Position numbers and translations under genes: made by a program. This document shows positions 1 to 27,847 of a stretch of DNA of 27,847 nt, piece by piece (within the stretch, counting starts at the first letter, position 1; each line of letters starts with the position of its first letter). Below the pieces are notes generated by a model, which was given only the letters and a program-made list of their open reading frames with translations, had not been told where the DNA came from and made no database searches. The stretch is from Cladosporium sp. IMV 00045 (Eukaryota > Ascomycota > Dothideomycetes > Cladosporiales > Cladosporiaceae), in contig MSJI02000397.1 of the NCBI GenBank assembly GCA_001931905.2, positions 1 through 27,847 of the forward strand. The letters are read 5' to 3'.

Positions 1-371
1 AGTATCGGGTATCGTTTTCGGAACCTATCGATCCACCGTTTACTAATAGGAGGGTAGGAAGTCGGAGTCGAGCTTAGGCGGAAGCGGGAGTTACGGATTT
101 CTTCGGCGAGTTCTCTCGTTAACGCGAGAGTAATAGGGACTCCCGACTTCGATAATCGAGTAATAGACTTTAGGAGAGCCTCTTCTTCGGCCGTCGAGAG
201 TATCTTTTGCGATTCGTGCGATTTAGAGCGAGAAGTTCGGTTAGAGAGCCGCGAAGCGAGAGAAGAAGGAGGGATATTAAACGCGTAAGCGCACTTTCGA
301 ATCGAGGTATATTCGCTATTTCGGTAGGACGTTAGGGCCGTAGTAAGCGTATCTTCGGTATAGGTAGGCAT
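1..371 (-). CDS. Fot1/pogo-like transposase, N-terminal part (runs off left edge)
   Basis: Read on the minus strand from the ATG at 371-369, 123 codons stay open to the window edge. The protein begins MPTYTEDTLTTAL and has a psq-type helix-turn-helix (about residues 8-45, around SIRKCAYAFNIPPSSLASRL). A CENP-B/Tc5-like DNA-binding segment follows (about 60-123, with STAEEEALLKSITRL and ISKRWIDRFRKRYP). This is the DNA-binding half of Tc1/mariner-superfamily pogo/Fot1 transposases; the DDE half lies outside the window. The start fits because it lies 65 bp inside the terminal repeat at 436-478. Codon use is extraordinary: no TCA, CCA, ACA, GCA, TTG, CTG or GTG occurs in 123 codons. The DNA has only five CA or TG dinucleotides in 371 bases. 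The family call is confident; whether the full gene is intact cannot be seen. Confidence 0.85.
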   Translation of the reverse strand, partial: MPTYTEDTLTTALTSYRNSEYTSIRKCAYAFNIPPSSLASRLSNRTSRSKSHESQKILSTAEEEALLKSITRLSKSGVPITLALTRELAEEIRNSRFRLSSTPTSYPPISKRWIDRFRKRYPI

Positions 372-435
372 AAGAAAGGAATAAGAAGAAAGGACACGTA
401 AAAATCGAATAATAACGCGAGATAAGCGCGCGGGA

Positions 436-478
436 CTGTCCCGCTTCTAGTACTGTCCCGCTTCCCCTACCGTAACGT
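436..478. repeat. Terminal inverted repeat of the left Fot1/pogo-like copy
   Basis: This 43-base segment is the inverted counterpart of 27651-27693, with two mismatches. It contains two copies of a 12-mer (GAAGCGGGACAG read inward on the minus strand) separated by five bases. It ends beside a TA at 479-480, the expected target-site duplication of this superfamily. The sequence beyond the TA is LINE coding sequence, so the transposon inserted into a LINE. Confidence 0.85.
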
Positions 479-9028: not shown

Positions 9029-9738
9029 TATACCGCCAAGTATAGACACAGGGGCCTACAGACCATATCGGACGAGATGAGGAACGTCGTGCAAGAGCGA
9101 CTGAAAATAACCGTGCAACGGACAATCGTAGACGCTATTCGGGATGAGGTCGCGAAGGCGGTGCAGCAACAGGTGGGTGATGCATTGCGCAGTGAAGTCA
9201 AGAGTATCATTCAGAGCGCGGTCGCGAATGGTATCAACGAGCAAGTCACTACTATAGTTCAACAGCAGGTCACTGCCATAGTGCAACAACAGGTCACTGC
9301 GATCATTCAACAGCAGGTCACCGGTATAGTGCAGCAACACGTCACCTCTATCGTCCAGGAACATGTGACCGCCATTGTCGAAAAGCAGCTATCCAGCTTC
9401 CAACTGTCCAGCCCAAACCCCTCCTACGCCGACATCGCGCACATCCCACCGGGCAGCCACCCCAGCAACGCGAGGACGCTCTCCAACCAGACAACCCCGT
9501 CGACCCTGACTGACACACTGTACTGTACCTCGGGCCTGTCCCAACGTAGAAGAGGAGGAAAGGGGCAGGGCCAATGCAAGCAAAATCAGATAGAAGATCG
9601 AGGAAGAGATGAGGAAGGAAGAAGGCGGAAGTGGCTGGCGGTGCGTGGCAGTGACGAGTGACCCTCGCAACGCCGACCGTATTCGCATCACTTGTCGGGA
9701 CGAGGACGAGCTGGCCCGTGTCAAGGGTGTGGCAGACA
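9029..9738 (+). pseudogene. LINE ORF1 (gag-like) fragment, frameshifted
   Basis: The first frame (from about 9029) encodes a long coiled-coil-like stretch (DEMRNVVQERLKITVQRTIV), then six tandem eight-residue repeats, then NPSYADIAHIPPGS and TLTDTLYCTSG. The frame shifts at about 9535-9545. The second frame reads VEEEERGRANASKIR, a TAG, KIEEEMRKEEGGSGWRCVAV, then DPRNADRIRITCRDEDELAR, and stops resembling anything at about 9738. The PSYAD.A, TLYCT and DELARVKGVA blocks are typical of ORF1 proteins of fungal Tad1-like LINEs. The zinc-knuckle end of ORF1 and all of ORF2 are missing, so this is a 3'-truncated relic. The internal TAG sits where Gln would be expected, as RIP would produce. Confidence 0.8.
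9245..9388 (+). repeat. Six 24-bp tandem repeats encoding VTAIVQQQ-like units
   Basis: Inside the LINE ORF1 relic, a 24-base unit is repeated six times in frame. The units read VTTIVQQQ, VTAIVQQQ, VTAIIQQQ, VTGIVQQH, VTSIVQEH and VTAIVEKQ. Divergence rises toward the 3' end. An eight-residue period is not the canonical coiled-coil heptad. Confidence 0.85.
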
Positions 9739-17014: not shown

Positions 17015-18893
17015 ATGGACATAGCGCTTGCAGAATTAGGGTCTTCTGATGGTCTGAAGATATCTGACGTCGCAAGAAAACACGGGCTTACCAGATCCGC
17101 GCTTAGCAAGCGTGTCCATGCAAAAAACTCCTCAAGTGCTCGGGACTACGAGTCGCAGAGGATGCTCAACGATAAGCAGGAAGAAGAGCTTGTAAACTAC
17201 ATACACCATCTTTGTGAGCGATGCCTTCCACCTACACCCAAAATCGTCGCCAATATTGCCCAAGAACTATGTGGGAGAAAGCTCTCAAAGAACTGGACCT
17301 CGCGTTTCGTGGCAAGACACAAGCACAGGCTTGATGCCCGATATCTCAACACCATCGACCTCGCCCGCCACAGAGCTGATTCCAGAAGTAGCTATGAGGC
17401 CTACTTCGCCATTGTTGGCCAGAAAGTAGAAGAATACAAGATAAGTGCTGGCAATACATACAACATGGACGAGAAGGGCTTTCTCATCGGCAAGCTGCAA
17501 AAGACCCGAAGGATCTTCGCACGAGAGCTGTACGAGCGAGGAAGCCTCACAAAAGCAGGCCAGGACGGTAGCAGAGAGTGGATCACGGTTGTGGCCACGA
17601 TATGCGCAGACGGTACCAAGTTGTCGCCAGCTCTAATCTACAAGGCGATCTCTGGTAATTTGCAAGACACGTGGCTCAACGACTTCGAGCCGGAGGAACA
17701 CGAGTGCCACTTCGCCTCATCGCCTAATGGGTGGACGAGCGACGAGCTTGGTTACAGCTGGCTGACTGGCCTGTTCGAGAAGGAGACGTCGTCTAAAGCG
17801 AGGCGATCTCACAGGCTCTTATTCGTTGATGGACACGGCTCACACGTCAACATGAAGTTCCTCAACTGGTGCGAGCAGCACAAGATCCTACTTGCTGTCT
17901 ACCCGCCGCTCTACACACAGGCTGCAGCCTCTGGATGTGAGCGTCTTTGCCCCACTGGCCAATTACTACAGCCAGGCGCTCGATGACTTAGTCAGGAAGT
18001 CAGAAGGCCACACGAGCATCAGCAAACGAGACTTCTTCTCGCTTTTCTGGCCAGCCTTCGAGAAGGCCTTTACGAAAAAGAACATAGCGTCAGCTTGGTC
18101 GAAGACCGGGATCTGGCCTTTGGATCCTCAGAAAGTGCTCAAATCCTTCCCTGCGGCCCAGGAAGCTGAGATCAGGTCTCAGCGAAGCACGCAACGATGG
18201 AGCGACAGTCCACCGAGTATATACGATTCGCCGTCGAAGACAAAGAGGCTAAGAAGTATCCTCAGCGTCAGCTCGGCACACAGCGACAACAAGACGCAAA
18301 AGACGCTGGAGAGGCTCAGCGACACGGTGCTCGGTCTCTCGGCCAAGCTCGTGTTATCAGATTTGAAGGTGAAGCACTTAAGTGAGTCTATCCACGAAGA
18401 GGAAAAGCGGAAGAAGAGGAAGAGGAAGGTTATAGACGAGTTAAGGGCCTCTGGTCCATCTGGGACGCTGTTCATGAGCCCTTCCAAAATCCAGAAGACG
18501 CGAGACATTGCATCGAGCAGAGAGCGAGAGAAGGAGCAGTCGCAGCAAGAAAAAGAGGTCAGGGCTCAAGAACGAGCTGAGAAGAAGGCGCAGAAGGAGG
18601 TAGAGGCGCAGAGGAAGCGAGATGAACGAGCTGCAGCTGCTTTTGCTCGCAAGACAGCTGCAGCTCAGAAGAAGGCCGCAGCACAGGCGTCACGAGAGGC
18701 TAAGAAAGCTCAGAAACAGAATGACATGGCATCGAGGGCTGCGAGCAGGCGACTGCAAAGCTTCTCAAAGAAAGAGCCAGCTGCTGAGAGTGCCCCAAAC
18801 ACTCTACGAGAGCCAGTAGTCATTGAGCCTGTAGAGCAGGCGACCACGGCGAAAGGCCGGCCAGTGCGCCGACCAGCCCGGTTCAGAACATAA
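17015..18893 (+). pseudogene. Pogo/Fot1-like DDE transposase with one frameshift
   Basis: Two overlapping frames (17015-17986 and, from about 17892, to 18893) form one protein of about 626 residues broken by a two-base loss near 17909. Domains: psq-type HTH (about 15-45, ISDVARKHGLTRSALSKRVH), CENP-B/Tc5-like HTH (about 50-110), then the DDE_1 core. The catalytic triad is Asp152 in YNMDEKGF, Asp272 in FVDGHGSH and about Asp308 in QPLDVSVF. The spacing of about 35 residues between the last two suits this family. After about residue 440 there is a long basic, Ala/Glu/Lys-rich probable coiled coil (EKEVRAQERAEKKAQKEVEA) ending RPVRRPARFRT. Everything except the one frameshift appears intact, which argues for recent insertion. 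Start chosen as the first ATG 51 bases inside the terminal repeat. Confidence 0.9.
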
Positions 18894-19053: not shown

Positions 19054-21718
19054 TATGGAATAGGGCAGAAGAGCGTGTGGTAGCTCTTGTACAAGGGTGC
19101 ATAAGGACCGGGTTCCATCCCTGCACATGGAAGACTGTAAAAGGCATCCTGCTGCGCAAACACGGTAAACCCACGTACAGCGTCGCGAAAGCATATCGGG
19201 TGATCAGCCTGCTCAGCTGTCATGGGAAAGTGGTGGAGAGGGCGGTCGCAACTTGGATCGCATCCTACTATGATACAAACGAAATCCTCCATCGAGGGCA
19301 GTTCGGCTGCCGAAGGGGAAGGGGGACATCAGACGCGGTGGCTCAGCTGGTCGCAAAAGTCGAGAATGCTTGGAGCCAGAAGCGCATTACACTTGCTTTA
19401 CTCCTTGATGTCAAAGGTGCGTTTGACCGGGTCAACAAGCAGAAACTCCTACTGCGGATGGTCTAAGTCGGGATGGCTAGCAACATCGTGCGCTAGGTGG
19501 ACTCGTTCTTATCAGACCGCCGAGCCATATTAATTATTGACGGGAGAACGAGCGAGACCCGCAGCATTTAAGTAGGCCTGCCGCAAGGGTCACCGATATC
19601 ACCGGTGCTATTCATCTTATTAGTAAGCGTAATGTTCTAGTAGCTGGAAGATAGATACATAAAGCTCGAGGCGATCTCATTCGTGGACGACATCGGTCTA
19701 GTAACAGAATGTGATGATATAGAAGAAAGCTCGAGGAAGCTCGAGCATATCGCTAGAGATGTAATATAATAGGGATCGGATAATAAAGCCGATTTCGAGG
19801 TTAGCAAAACCGAAGCGCTCGTCTTTAGTAGGCGTCGCAAGATTCTATAAGTAGCAAAAGAGGTAGCTATCTGCATTAGAGAGCAGACTTTTGCTATTAA
19901 GCAAGAAGCGACGAAATGGCTAGGCTTCTAGCTGGATTCGAAGCTGTCGTTCAAAAGCCACTTCGAAAACAGGATGGTAAGTGCTAAAGGAGCTCTATAG
20001 CGGGTATCTAGTCTTAGTAGAAGCAATGGCGGCTTGTCGGTGGACTTAATGCGGAGACTGGTCGTGGTAGCTGTCACCTCCGTGGCGTTATACGGGTTAG
20101 AGATTTGGTAGAGAGGCTAGAAAGACCAAGTGGAGAAAGTATAGCTGCTGCTAAATAGCCAGGCGAAAGCCATTATAGGGCTATTAACATTAACCTCTCG
20201 AACCTTTCTTCGGGCGGAATCGTGCCTGCCTACCGCATAAGACCTTCTCGATCGTCGCTAGACATCGTTCGCGGTGCGGGCGCTTAATGCGAACGGAGAT
20301 CATCTAACGCACTAGCTCCTACCTGCTAATTTCCGTCTCGGCGAGCTTTATAGACACGAAGGGGCAACGGGTCAGCCGTCTAGCATCGGCTGGATGATAG
20401 CGGAGAAGACGCACCGATCATTCGGAAGCAGACTCGCATAGCAGGTAGCGAGGCACGTTAGCTACGACACCGAGTACGGATTCGAGCTGCCTCGAAAGGT
20501 GGACTCACCTATAACAAGCCTAGTGATCCGGACCTAAGGCTACTTGCAGATGCCGCAAAGAATGCAATCCGATAATCCCCAGACCAAAACTAATACTATT
20601 CGTGAGCACAACAAAGGATATTAGTTTTAGTCTAGAGATCGCATAGAGAGAATGCCATGTATGGAAGACCAAAATGTTATCGCTGGGAAATCACATCACA
20701 ATAGCCGACGCGGCGATAGTTGCGGTCGGCATGGGTGCGAAGAACCTCATCTCGATACTCTCGAGGACGAATCACCTCTATACCGAGATTGTTACGGAGT
20801 CGCGGGCAGTACTAGCTGCCATTCAGAGCAGCAAGTAATGGATACTGCTAGTCGTTACCGGTATCAAAAGACACGCACATAGTGTCGAAGAAGTAGGAGG
20901 CTAAGTGGTTTTAACGTGGCTCTCAAATTGCGAAGATATTAAGAGCTACAATATAGCCTGAGCTGCGGCATAACGAGCGGTAAAGCAACAACCTAAAGAG
21001 ATGCGATCAGCCTCGCTATCGTATATGAAACAAGCTATTAAGGAGAGGTAGAAGCTAACTACTAAGATGAATAAACATATCGAAGATGCGAGGAAGTCAG
21101 TTACAGCTAGATACCTATAGCTTAAGTCCGGTTATACAGTCATAGGAGCTCACCTACTAAGGATTAGCAAAGTCTAGGACGCATAATGCTAGTGGTGTGG
21201 CGAGAGCAGTCAAATCGTCGCCCACCTCTTACTAGAGTGCCAGAAGTAGCGAAGGCAGTAGGATACTATGCTATAGAAGCTACGCGCGAATAAGCTTTCG
21301 ATTAGCAGAAGGCGAAACAGAGCAGACCTAAAGATAATATTCGCAGGTAAGGCGATTATAGAGGCCCTTTAGTTTATTGAAAACACAGAAGTAGGTAAGA
21401 AGCCGGCTAGAAACGCTAATAAGAATGACTCGTGGGACATCGAACGCTTGGATCGGAGTGCAAATGAGGAAGACAGGATGTTAGAGGACAAAAAGAGCTA
21501 AGGAGAAAAGTGAGGAGTAATAGCGACAGGAAAGTAGGAGGGCACTAAGCCCGAAAGCAGTAGCAACTTAGTGAAGTCGGGACAGCGAGCAAATTTGTAT
21601 AGATGAATACCGAAGCGAGAGCACAAGTAGAAGCCATAGAAATCGTCGCGAAAATAGCCGACATGCCATAAGCTATATAGCTTGAATACAGTATGATTAA
21701 AAAAAAAATTTAAAAAAA

Positions 21719-23117
21719 CGCCTAGACAGGAAGGTTTCGGCATACGCGGCAAAGTTTGTATCGCTCCCAAAGAGTAACCCAGCTAAGAGCGCGCTATTAC
21801 GTGGGTTCAACGTGAACACACAAGTATCGCCACTCGGAGCGACAGTCGCAGCATCGAAAGAGCGGCTGAAACCAAATGGATCTAGGCTACCTACGGGCAA
21901 CCCGCCATGGATCCAGGCGCCGCGGACAGACCACAGCCACCGAGTGGTCATCAAAGAAAAAGACCAGGCAATTAGAGACACGGCCACGATCGCAGGAGCA
22001 GGTACTGTAGGCCTATACACGGATTCGTCAGTCGCGAAGCGGCTGGCCGCCATCGTAGTCGTAAAGAGGGCCGGGATGTTCACTCAGGTCGTCCGGCAAG
22101 TCTCGATAGGATGGGCATCTACGTGTGTGGTATTGAGTGCAGAGATAGCAGCGATAGCAGCGGCTCTAAAGTACGCTCAGGAGAATCTTACAGAGGTTTA
22201 ATAGCTGGCGGTATTCTCAGACAGTCAGCAGGCTCTCCGAGCAATTCAAGCCGGGAACGATGCTAGGGCCGGACGAGCGCTCCTGTCGAAGATCGTAGAG
22301 AGCATAGAAGCTCTTAGCAAGGCAGGGATAGATCTCAAATTCAGATGGTCCCCGGGACATGAAGGCATAGTGGGAAGTGAAGAGGCCGACGATGCAGCAA
22401 GAGAGGCGTCGAATCACACGGGTAAACCTACGGCTCCGGCATTAGAGAGGGTGCGGGAAGTGTCAAGCGTTGTTCGTTTGATAAATCGGGATAGGAGTGA
22501 AGATCTGAACCCGTTCGATACCACGAGGCTGCCCGGCCAATATAGGTGGAAGATGGATCAGGCCCTACCAGGAAAGCACACCCTAAAGCTATACGGGTCG
22601 CTCACCTCGGGCCAGGCGTCGATCCTGATCCAGGCGAGAACGGGACACTGCCGCCTAAACCAGTACCTGTCCCGAGCAGAACTGAGAGACAAAGCCAAAT
22701 GCGGATGTGGAGACAACGATGAAACCATCAAACACGTCCTTCTTTGGTGCCCGAGATGGGTAGACGAGCGTAAGGAGCTACGAGCAGCTGCAGGCGATAG
22801 GTCGGGAGACATATCCTACCTCTTAGGAGGATGGAGTTCGAAAAAGGACATCAGAACAGGGCACTTATTAGACGGCCCGAAAGGAAAATGGAAGCCGGAT
22901 CTAGCAGTCGTCAAGGCTACCATCCGATTCCTAGAGAAAACTAGCAGGTTGACCTACCAACAGGAGGTCATATAGGCAGTATAGGGGATGGGTTACTCTC
23001 ACTCGCCCTGAGCAAAGGCAACGAATTTCATTTGTAAGTAAGGTTACTTTTAGGGACGGCTCATACAGACACCGTGAATAGCCTAACAGAATCAATCAAT
23101 CAATCAATCAATCAATC
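21719..23117 (+). pseudogene. Second LINE: ORF2 C-terminal part (RNase H and Cys motif) with 3' tail
   Basis: Immediately after the A-rich tail of the upstream LINE, a new frame begins (RLDRKVSAYAAKFVSLPKSN). An RNase H domain follows: GLYTDSSVAKRLAAIVVV, LSAEIAAIAAALKYAQ, then a TAA-TAG pair at 22199-22204 where two Gln codons are expected, then LAVFSDSQQALRAIQ and FRWSPGHEGIVGSEEADDAA. Next come LTSGQASILIQARTGHCRLN and the terminal motif CGCGDNDETIKHVLLWCPRW, with a stop at 22973-22975. About 115 bp of 3' UTR follows, ending in (AATC)7. Motifs resemble the 481-2874 LINE more than its neighbour. The RT part is missing. The junction suggests that the upstream LINE inserted into this one or that both share a truncation point. 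Confidence 0.88.
23090..23117. repeat. (AATC)7 tandem repeat, LINE 3' tail
   Basis: Seven perfect AATC units end the LINE 3' UTR. They abut epimerase coding sequence, as expected if the tetranucleotide is the element's 3' tail made at insertion. Confidence 0.9.
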
Positions 23118-27475: not shown

Positions 27476-27650
27476 TTGGCTCCCACTGACAGGGATTAGG
27501 AAATTCGCAAGTTTATGGGAAATATGCAGGCATCCAAGATTAAAATCTAATAACAATATTCCGCCGTTCAGATTCGGGGTGGATTGGTAAGTATGGAGTC
27601 GGAAAGCTTGGCTGCCACATACGCTCTCAACGATCTGCTGCATTCCACTA

Positions 27651-27693
27651 ACGTCACTGTAGGGGAAGCGGGACAGTACTAGAAGCGGGACAG
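27651..27693. repeat. Terminal inverted repeat of the right Fot1/pogo-like copy
   Basis: Inverted relative to 436-478, with two mismatches in 43 bases. It includes the duplicated GAAGCGGGACAG and is preceded by a TA at 27649-27650. It lies 13 bases beyond the stop codon of the transposase fragment. Confidence 0.85.
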
Positions 27694-27706
27694 AATTCTA
27701 ACCTAT

Positions 27707-27847
27707 CTACTTCAAAATCGGTCTCCTACTAGCTACGATAATACAATCGCTCTCACTTTCGGATATATTACTCCCGATAGCTTCGTCTTCCTCGTCCTCG
27801 ATTTCGGGGGTTATAGCTTTCGCCTTTTGCTTCTTCTTCGGCTTTCC
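27707..27847 (-). CDS. Fot1/pogo-like transposase, C-terminal 46 residues (runs off right edge)
   Basis: On the minus strand an open frame enters at the right edge and ends with TAG at 27709-27707. It starts GKPKKKQKAKA, is acidic in the middle (EIEDEEDEAIGSN), and ends ESDCIIVASRRPILK. A Lys-rich stretch, an acidic stretch and a final SD.I.V motif are typical tails of fungal Fot1/pogo transposases. The adjacent terminal repeat places it in the same family as the left-edge copy. The fragment is too short for a family call on its own. It is also poor in CA and TG (four in 141 bases). Confidence 0.75.
   Translation of the reverse strand, partial: GKPKKKQKAKAITPEIEDEEDEAIGSNISESESDCIIVASRRPILK

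Follow-up and report, generated by a model that had tools for sequence, protein, structure and literature searches.

A CA/TG-depleted pogo/Fot1-type transposon family in Cladosporium that was probably hardened against RIP

The window analyzed here, a whole stretch of 27,847 nucleotides from Cladosporium sp. IMV 00045, is contig C394 of the 49.9 Mb, 954-contig assembly that we examined. It carries two copies of one DNA transposon in the same orientation: the 5' part of one copy lies at positions 1–478 (minus strand) and the 3' part of a second copy at 27651–27847. The contig ends within both copies, and many other contigs likewise end inside this transposon, referred to as family A. The left piece, truncated by the left contig end, matches a complete copy at another locus of the genome, L031, with 99.4% identity over 467 bases. 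It contains the first 123 codons of a CA/TG-depleted transposase (3–371, minus strand), including the start codon and the HTH_psq and HTH_Tnp_Tc5 DNA-binding domains, and at its right end the terminal inverted repeat (TIR) that forms the 5' end of the element (436–478, minus strand; core 436–467, located by a pattern search), where CA/TG sites are present, in contrast to the bulk of the gene. The right piece is truncated by the right contig end and is 100% identical to L031 over 186 bases; it consists of the TIR at the 3' end of the element (27651–27693, plus strand; core 27662–27693) and, as translation showed, the C-terminal 46 codons of the transposase with a TAG stop (27707–27847, minus strand). 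By direct reading, the dinucleotide TA adjoins each window-borne end (479–480 and 27649–27650) and also both ends of L031, and we regard it as a putative target-site duplication. The 32-base TIR core, counting both ends, was found at 21 places in the genome with at most three mismatches, and at none for a reversed control. An open frame with repeated QQQVTAI-like units was also observed in the window, at 9077–9661.

The initial annotation of this window had singled out the left edge for its near absence of CA and TG, and our recount confirmed it. Positions 1–371 hold three CA and two TG dinucleotides (observed/expected, o/e, 0.18 and 0.07; about 45 expected from base composition), with one TG in the start codon; CG is frequent (o/e 1.91), and the o/e of TA is 1.37. 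The 123 codons at 3–371 contain no stop, no NCA among 47 NCN codons, and no TTG, CTG or GTG among 13 Leu and Val codons. The same bias had been proposed for the right edge and is present there, with three CA and one TG in the 141 bases at 27707–27847, which encode the C terminus of the same transposase. Across the rest of the window (440–27700) the o/e is 1.11 for CA and 1.05 for TG, and in a scan with 300-base segments at steps of 200 bases the left edge alone fell below half of the expected CA/TG. RIP, the C-to-T hypermutation of repeats that acts chiefly at CpA/TpG, had also been claimed for the LINEs of the window. This claim was not confirmed: in the LINE at 480–2875, the o/e of CA+TG is 1.13 and TA/AT is 0.71, showing no sign of RIP. 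At 19467–21800, CA+TG is mildly low (o/e 0.74) and TA/AT is 1.25.

L031, on contig C837, is complete from TIR to TIR and encodes 557 amino acids followed by a stop; a frame broken in all copies, an outcome that the initial annotation had named as counting against its reading, is therefore not what was found. A Pfam search assigned HTH_psq, HTH_Tnp_Tc5 and DDE_1 domains to the transposase. The DDE_1 catalytic domain matched PF03184 with an E value of 8.9e-28, and the N-terminal helix-turn-helix (HTH) DNA-binding domains, PF05225 and PF03221, exceeded the cut-off. The acidic residues D170, D281 and D317 are present, the last two 35 residues apart, and by the motifs of the family we take these to be the catalytic three. 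By its Pfam domains we place the element among the Fot1/pogo-type transposons of the Tc1/mariner supergroup. It resembles the Fot1/pogo transposons of filamentous fungi in its HTH_psq, HTH_Tnp_Tc5 and DDE_1 domains, its TIRs, its terminal TA and its length of about 1.8 kb, and it differs from them in its CA/TG content, which across the full gene reaches 17% of the expected value.

The open frame of L031 (1746 bases, stop to stop) has an o/e of 0.17 for CA+TG, 1.76 for CG and 1.40 for TA, with a GC content of 0.49; its RIP indices are 1.59 for TA/AT and 0.21 for (CA+TG)/(AC+GT). Thirty-six CA/TG sites remain in the gene, and RIP at these sites would be silent at 2, missense at 23 and nonsense at 11. 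Met, Trp, Cys, His and Gln codons, for which CA/TG is unavoidable, account for 25 of the 36. At 19 of these 25 positions the residue is identical in at least 88% of those of 34 undepleted relatives that aligned there, and the other six are variable. These five amino acids together make up 4.5% of the family A transposase, compared with 11.3–12.5% in the relatives from the same genome, families C and D.

The codon context of the depletion carried two opposing marks: RIP products where a hit would be silent, and a lack of the vulnerable form where a hit would alter the protein. In family A the ratio of T to C at codon ends is 81:1 before A, as RIP would produce, and 5:74 before G, where the T is RIP-sensitive and is avoided; before C (30:29) and before T (28:34) there is no bias. 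Leu and Val codons end in NTA or NTG at 43:1. In the undepleted relatives C_L055, D_L057 and D_L058, the T:C ratios are 39:54, 50:61 and 63:43 before G and 19:47, 28:51 and 18:70 before A. NCA makes up 4 of 174 NCN codons in family A, and 42/146, 45/165 and 55/168 in the same three relatives. One could attribute such figures to a dinucleotide or codon bias that has nothing to do with RIP, for example one brought along from a donor host whose codon usage was unusual, and the high CG of the open frame (o/e 1.76) does recall some biased genomes. However, the bias sits at codon boundaries, runs in opposite directions before A and before G and disappears before C and T; it is not shared by the undepleted relatives of this genome; and the remaining sites are preferentially mutated from C to T in the copies, as described below. 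Donor codon bias was rejected on the codon-context test, and we consider a non-RIP bias of any kind very improbable.

The depletion also exceeds what RIP could achieve at silent sites. When the family A protein was written with the codon usage of C and D, 189±9 CA/TG sites were obtained; RIP saturation of the silent sites alone lowered this to 109±7.5 (minimum 81 in 1000 draws), whereas 36 are observed. The lowest count reachable by synonymous recoding is 25. At Ser, Thr, Pro and Ala positions identical between family A and D_L057, D_L058 or C_L055, NCA is used by family A at 3/67, 2/67 and 1/71 and by the relatives at 19/67, 21/67 and 15/71 (Fisher p = 3e-4, 1e-5 and 3e-4). Non-silent targets are swapped for synonyms in family A, and RIP itself is unable to make those synonyms.

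These results bear on a passive account, in which RIP took the silent and the tolerated missense CA/TG sites, purifying selection purged everything else, and the element is a lucky survivor in which RIP-safe codons were never favored. The silent classes are indeed almost entirely what RIP produces (81:1 before A; 43:1 among Leu and Val codons), and some of the lost Gln, His, Met and Trp residues could be accepted missense changes. In addition, when avoidance of T|G (the bar marks the codon boundary) was tested most strictly, with both amino acids identical, the comparison gave the expected direction without significance (p = 0.33, 0.09 and 0.24 against the C/D relatives; 1.0 for family B), and it became significant when the following G-codon alone was conserved (p = 0.015, 0.0003 and 0.0001; 0.009 for B). 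Against the passive account stand the 109±7.5 sites that silent-only RIP predicts in place of the 36 seen, the synonyms that replace NCA at positions shared with relatives, and the preference for C|G over T|G at 74:5, since RIP never changes T to C. We therefore regard it as unlikely.

Family B, a second multi-copy family represented by L056 (relatives L052–L054, L059 and L062), is about half-depleted, with a CA/TG o/e of 0.46 in a 580-codon open frame. It shows the same context pattern in weaker form, with T:C of 24:61 before G and 59:13 before A, and NCA at 10/159. The matched NCA test between A and B, itself depleted, gave 3/63 and 4/63. Family B seems to show the same process at an intermediate stage.

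A DNA search in which 40 of 82 candidates were scored found at least 42 family A matches of more than 280 bases, and three of them are pieces of one copy. Among copies with an identity of about 98% or higher there are at least 12 distinct 3' ends, L032 included, and the presence of near-identical copies at many places makes transposition of family A likely. Several older copies adjoin DNA resembling classic RIP relics (flank segments, chosen at a CA/TG o/e below 0.35, have a GC content of 0.27–0.49). Real relics thus lie next to members of this family, and the 371-base frame at the window edge might itself be an ordinary relic that stayed open by chance. This is hardly credible given a frame of 557 codons open from end to end at a GC content of 0.49 and at least 12 near-identical 3' ends; the complete copy rules out a chance open frame in a relic.

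Mutation in the copies was directed at CA. In the full copy L032, which is 98% identical, C-to-T changes affect 11 of 43 CA, 15 of 378 CG, 2 of 283 CT and 0 of 197 CC sites, and across a further 17 young copies or pieces they affect 5/195, 12/1771, 3/1394 and 0/945, respectively. In pairwise comparisons, CA was the most mutated context in six pairs from families A and B (0.22–0.33; in one pair the value comes from 2 of 9 sites), whereas in five pairs from families D and E it was the least mutated (0.02–0.11).

Twenty-two A-family pieces were tallied for stops, the near-identical A loci, except L032, being counted in the young-copy tally instead. In neither tally are L018 (the same place as L110), L019, L022, L026, L028, L060, an older second piece beside L015/L072, C888 and C80:16911-17350. 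The 22 pieces contain 144 stops, of which 96 fall at residual Trp or Gln codons, 43 at CGN codons and 5 elsewhere; none is TGA. CG sites are changed from C to T at 4% in L032 and at 25–61% in the heavily decayed L044, L046, L047, L050 and L096. Many CGG and CGA codons are now TAG and TAA in these five copies. The decayed copies suggest a two-step route, from CG to CA/TG and then to TA.

Five of the 22 pieces are stop-free and 17 carry stops. Relative to L031, five open pieces that belong to other subfamilies of A have dN/dS values of 0.24–0.39, and stop-bearing pieces have values of 0.25–0.45; the values record past constraint and do not separate live from decayed pieces, because most of the divergence probably predates the decay. 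As for the main claim of the initial annotation, that of a RIP-proof element, the part concerning exposure to RIP-type mutation while the frame was kept coding is borne out by the intact frame, the CA-directed spectrum and a codon pattern beyond silent-site RIP. The statement that nothing was left to mutate is not: 36 sites remain, 34 of them non-silent, and they are mutated in young and old copies, with CpG as a secondary target. Since the residual CA/TG and the CpG are still mutated, the family is better called hardened than immune.

Six DNA-methyltransferase loci were found in the genome, apparently three pairs by open-frame length (L112/L113, L114/L117 and L115/L116 are of similar length), and by their size we take the pairs to be DIM-2-like, RID-like and DNMT5-like. 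The Pfam scan took in L112 and L114, and the homolog search took in L114; L117 was paired with L114 by open-frame length only. L114, which we consider RID-like, has a PF00145 match, homologs among fungal DNA methyltransferases and an EQT motif of the kind that marks RID/Masc1 proteins. Its nearest named relatives come from Cladosporium allicinum (53% identity, with 46% of the query covered) and Hortaea werneckii (36–39% identity), and its homologs also include P0121 (100% over 94%) and P0122 (86% identical). The paired loci and the 86% homolog would fit a hybrid or duplicated genome.

If the mutator acts on repeats only, families A and B, with many copies, are mutated as expected, and families C and D, at one or two loci, are spared. 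Family E, with several copies, is spared as well: its copies are 88–95% identical and have long open frames (377–636 codons, L063–L068), normal CA/TG and no CA-directed change. A family E transposase (Tc5/DDE_1), 94.8% identical to L066, lies in the window itself, at 17015–18893, in two overlapping frames. Family E is multi-copy yet neither depleted nor CA-mutated, and copy number alone is therefore no predictor of exposure; a plain copy-number rule was rejected, with family E as the exception. RIP may thus be episodic, or family E may have spread after RIP waned.

Beyond this genome, 444 transposase homologs were found, of which 120 were listed. Among these 120, the closest 35 (P0001–P0035), from metagenomes and Cladosporium inversicolor, are 63–89% identical to the family A protein, 20 of them at least 550 amino acids long, and have a Gln+His+Trp+Cys+Met content of 4.1–6.1%. 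For the other 85 listed, the content is 9.0–14.0% in 64 and lower in 21. The same amino-acid depletion is present in transposases of C. inversicolor and of metagenomes, as read there from amino-acid content alone. Among the listed homologs, P0015, P0026, P0041 and P0085 come from C. inversicolor. A scan of viral_contigs for the relatives' DNA returned 83 stretches that fit a pattern, none of them confirmed. A quick unrooted tree was built from 73 rows: all 37 listed homologs of at least 500 amino acids with less than 8% Q/H/W/C/M, 31 (every second) of the other 62, and 5 of our own; it joins two long branches, P0115 and our own B. One depleted group in this tree unites 25 rows, L031 among them, and a second depleted group (P0065, P0067, P0068, P0049 and P0055) adjoins P0036–P0038. 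The metagenome transposases P0049, P0055, P0065, P0067, P0068 and P0115 are 51–55% identical and contain 3.4–5.7% Gln/His/Trp/Cys/Met.

Trp69, Trp113, Trp128, Trp194 and Gln180 are kept in P0036–P0038 and mostly replaced in the P0065 group, and the quick unrooted tree suggests that this group may represent a further, independent hardening. An excess of replacement at conserved Q/H/W/C/M columns is borderline both in the P0065 clade (12/29 versus 47/204, p = 0.041) and in the A clade (10/29 versus 36/204, p = 0.045; own A alone, p = 0.089); no excess was found in P0036–P0038 (5/29 versus 27/204, p = 0.57) or in our own B (p = 0.83). Fourteen held-out undepleted rows together gave 0/29 versus 0/205, and the six of them tested singly had 0–2 such columns each. 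The undepleted comparison rows, in these tests as in the residue comparison above, were picked by a Q/H/W/C/M content of at least 9%, and because of this their higher content holds by definition. Trp69 and Gln56 look like losses in the A clade, and at several positions the polarity of Trp versus Tyr/Phe could run either way. Trp69 is kept by our own B, P0115, P0036–P0038 and two of P0027, P0029 and P0034.

Given the observed depletion, intact frame, CA-directed damage in the copies and codon-context pattern, we put at roughly 80% the probability that a multi-copy pogo/Fot1-type transposon lived under RIP and was hardened against it; here we infer that RIP proper was the mutator, that the transposase was active and that robustness was selected. 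Under this reading, silent CA/TG sites would have been turned into TA by RIP itself. At non-silent sites, a copy would have kept its function often enough to leave progeny only where the target was already gone, either through a harmless synonym (NCA exchanged for NCG, NCT or NCC; T|G exchanged for C|G) or because Gln, His, Met or Trp had been replaced in a way that the protein tolerates. Many rounds of such copy-level selection would leave CA/TG mostly in unavoidable codons and in the terminal repeats, and these residual sites, together with CpG, would still suffer RIP. CpG is raised because NCG and C|G are among the synonyms by which NCA and T|G are avoided. At an exposure of 2.6% per site, a gene with 34 non-silent targets would escape every non-silent hit with a computed probability of 0.41, compared with 0.007–0.02 for the three undepleted relatives from families C and D; at the 26% per site seen in L032, this probability falls to 3.6e-5, and almost no copy would be spared.

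A broader proposal, for which we see the chances as evenly balanced, is that transposon lineages have repeatedly adapted, at the codon and the amino-acid level, to a DNA-mutating defence of their hosts in a long-running intragenomic arms race. The A clade is present in two or more fungal genomes, namely those of this strain and of C. inversicolor, as well as in numerous metagenome assemblies. The P0065 clade, which is placed separately, would have lost more of its conserved Trp, His, Gln and Cys after its split from the supported sisters P0036–P0038, in which most of these residues are retained. Recoding for robustness would cost rare amino acids and create new CpG targets, and the element would outlive RIP.

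Several known systems are comparable in part. Gypsy-like elements of Microbotryum, under TpCpG hypermutation, expanded despite RIP-like mutation, and the shedding of target sites was suggested for them (Horns et al. 2017, PMC5381629). The case differs in that the expanded clade has few RIP mutations and an inferred founder in which no target site was mutated; shedding is a suggestion there, and no such element is described (PMC5381629). The crapaud LTR retrotransposon of Podospora likewise persists in a RIP-active fungus, but the escapes named in the relevant passages are activity in the asexual phase, limits of size, similarity and distance, and divergence, and target-site loss is not among them (PMC10787394). 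The HNWD/NWD WD-repeat genes of Podospora are repeated, largely functional coding DNA with 8 of 9 silent-position CpA mutated; according to the part of the report that treats them, this concerns silent positions in a host gene family, not the whole-gene loss of non-silent targets in a transposon (PMC1805685). Sly1-1 of Neurospora crassa is a recently active DNA transposon with RIPped relatives in a strong RIP host, but it is reported without RIP skew, and the passages that deal with it do not mention target-site loss (PMC4592977). In a limited literature search, no intact transposon family that had been cleared of its RIP targets came up.

The field still asks how transposons survive in RIP-active fungi, and the answers named in the passages on this topic in one report are asexual spread, small size and divergence (PMC10787394). 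Family A offers an answer at the level of sequence, and a simple context test suffices to look for it in any genome: T at codon ends before A, C before G, scarce NCA, and remaining targets mostly at unavoidable codons. Standard RIP indices rate the intact family A gene as a relic, and pipelines may therefore discard live elements. The family provides a clear natural case for the study of selection for mutational robustness, and it suggests that parasitic DNA can be hardened, not made immune, against a mutation-based defence of its host.
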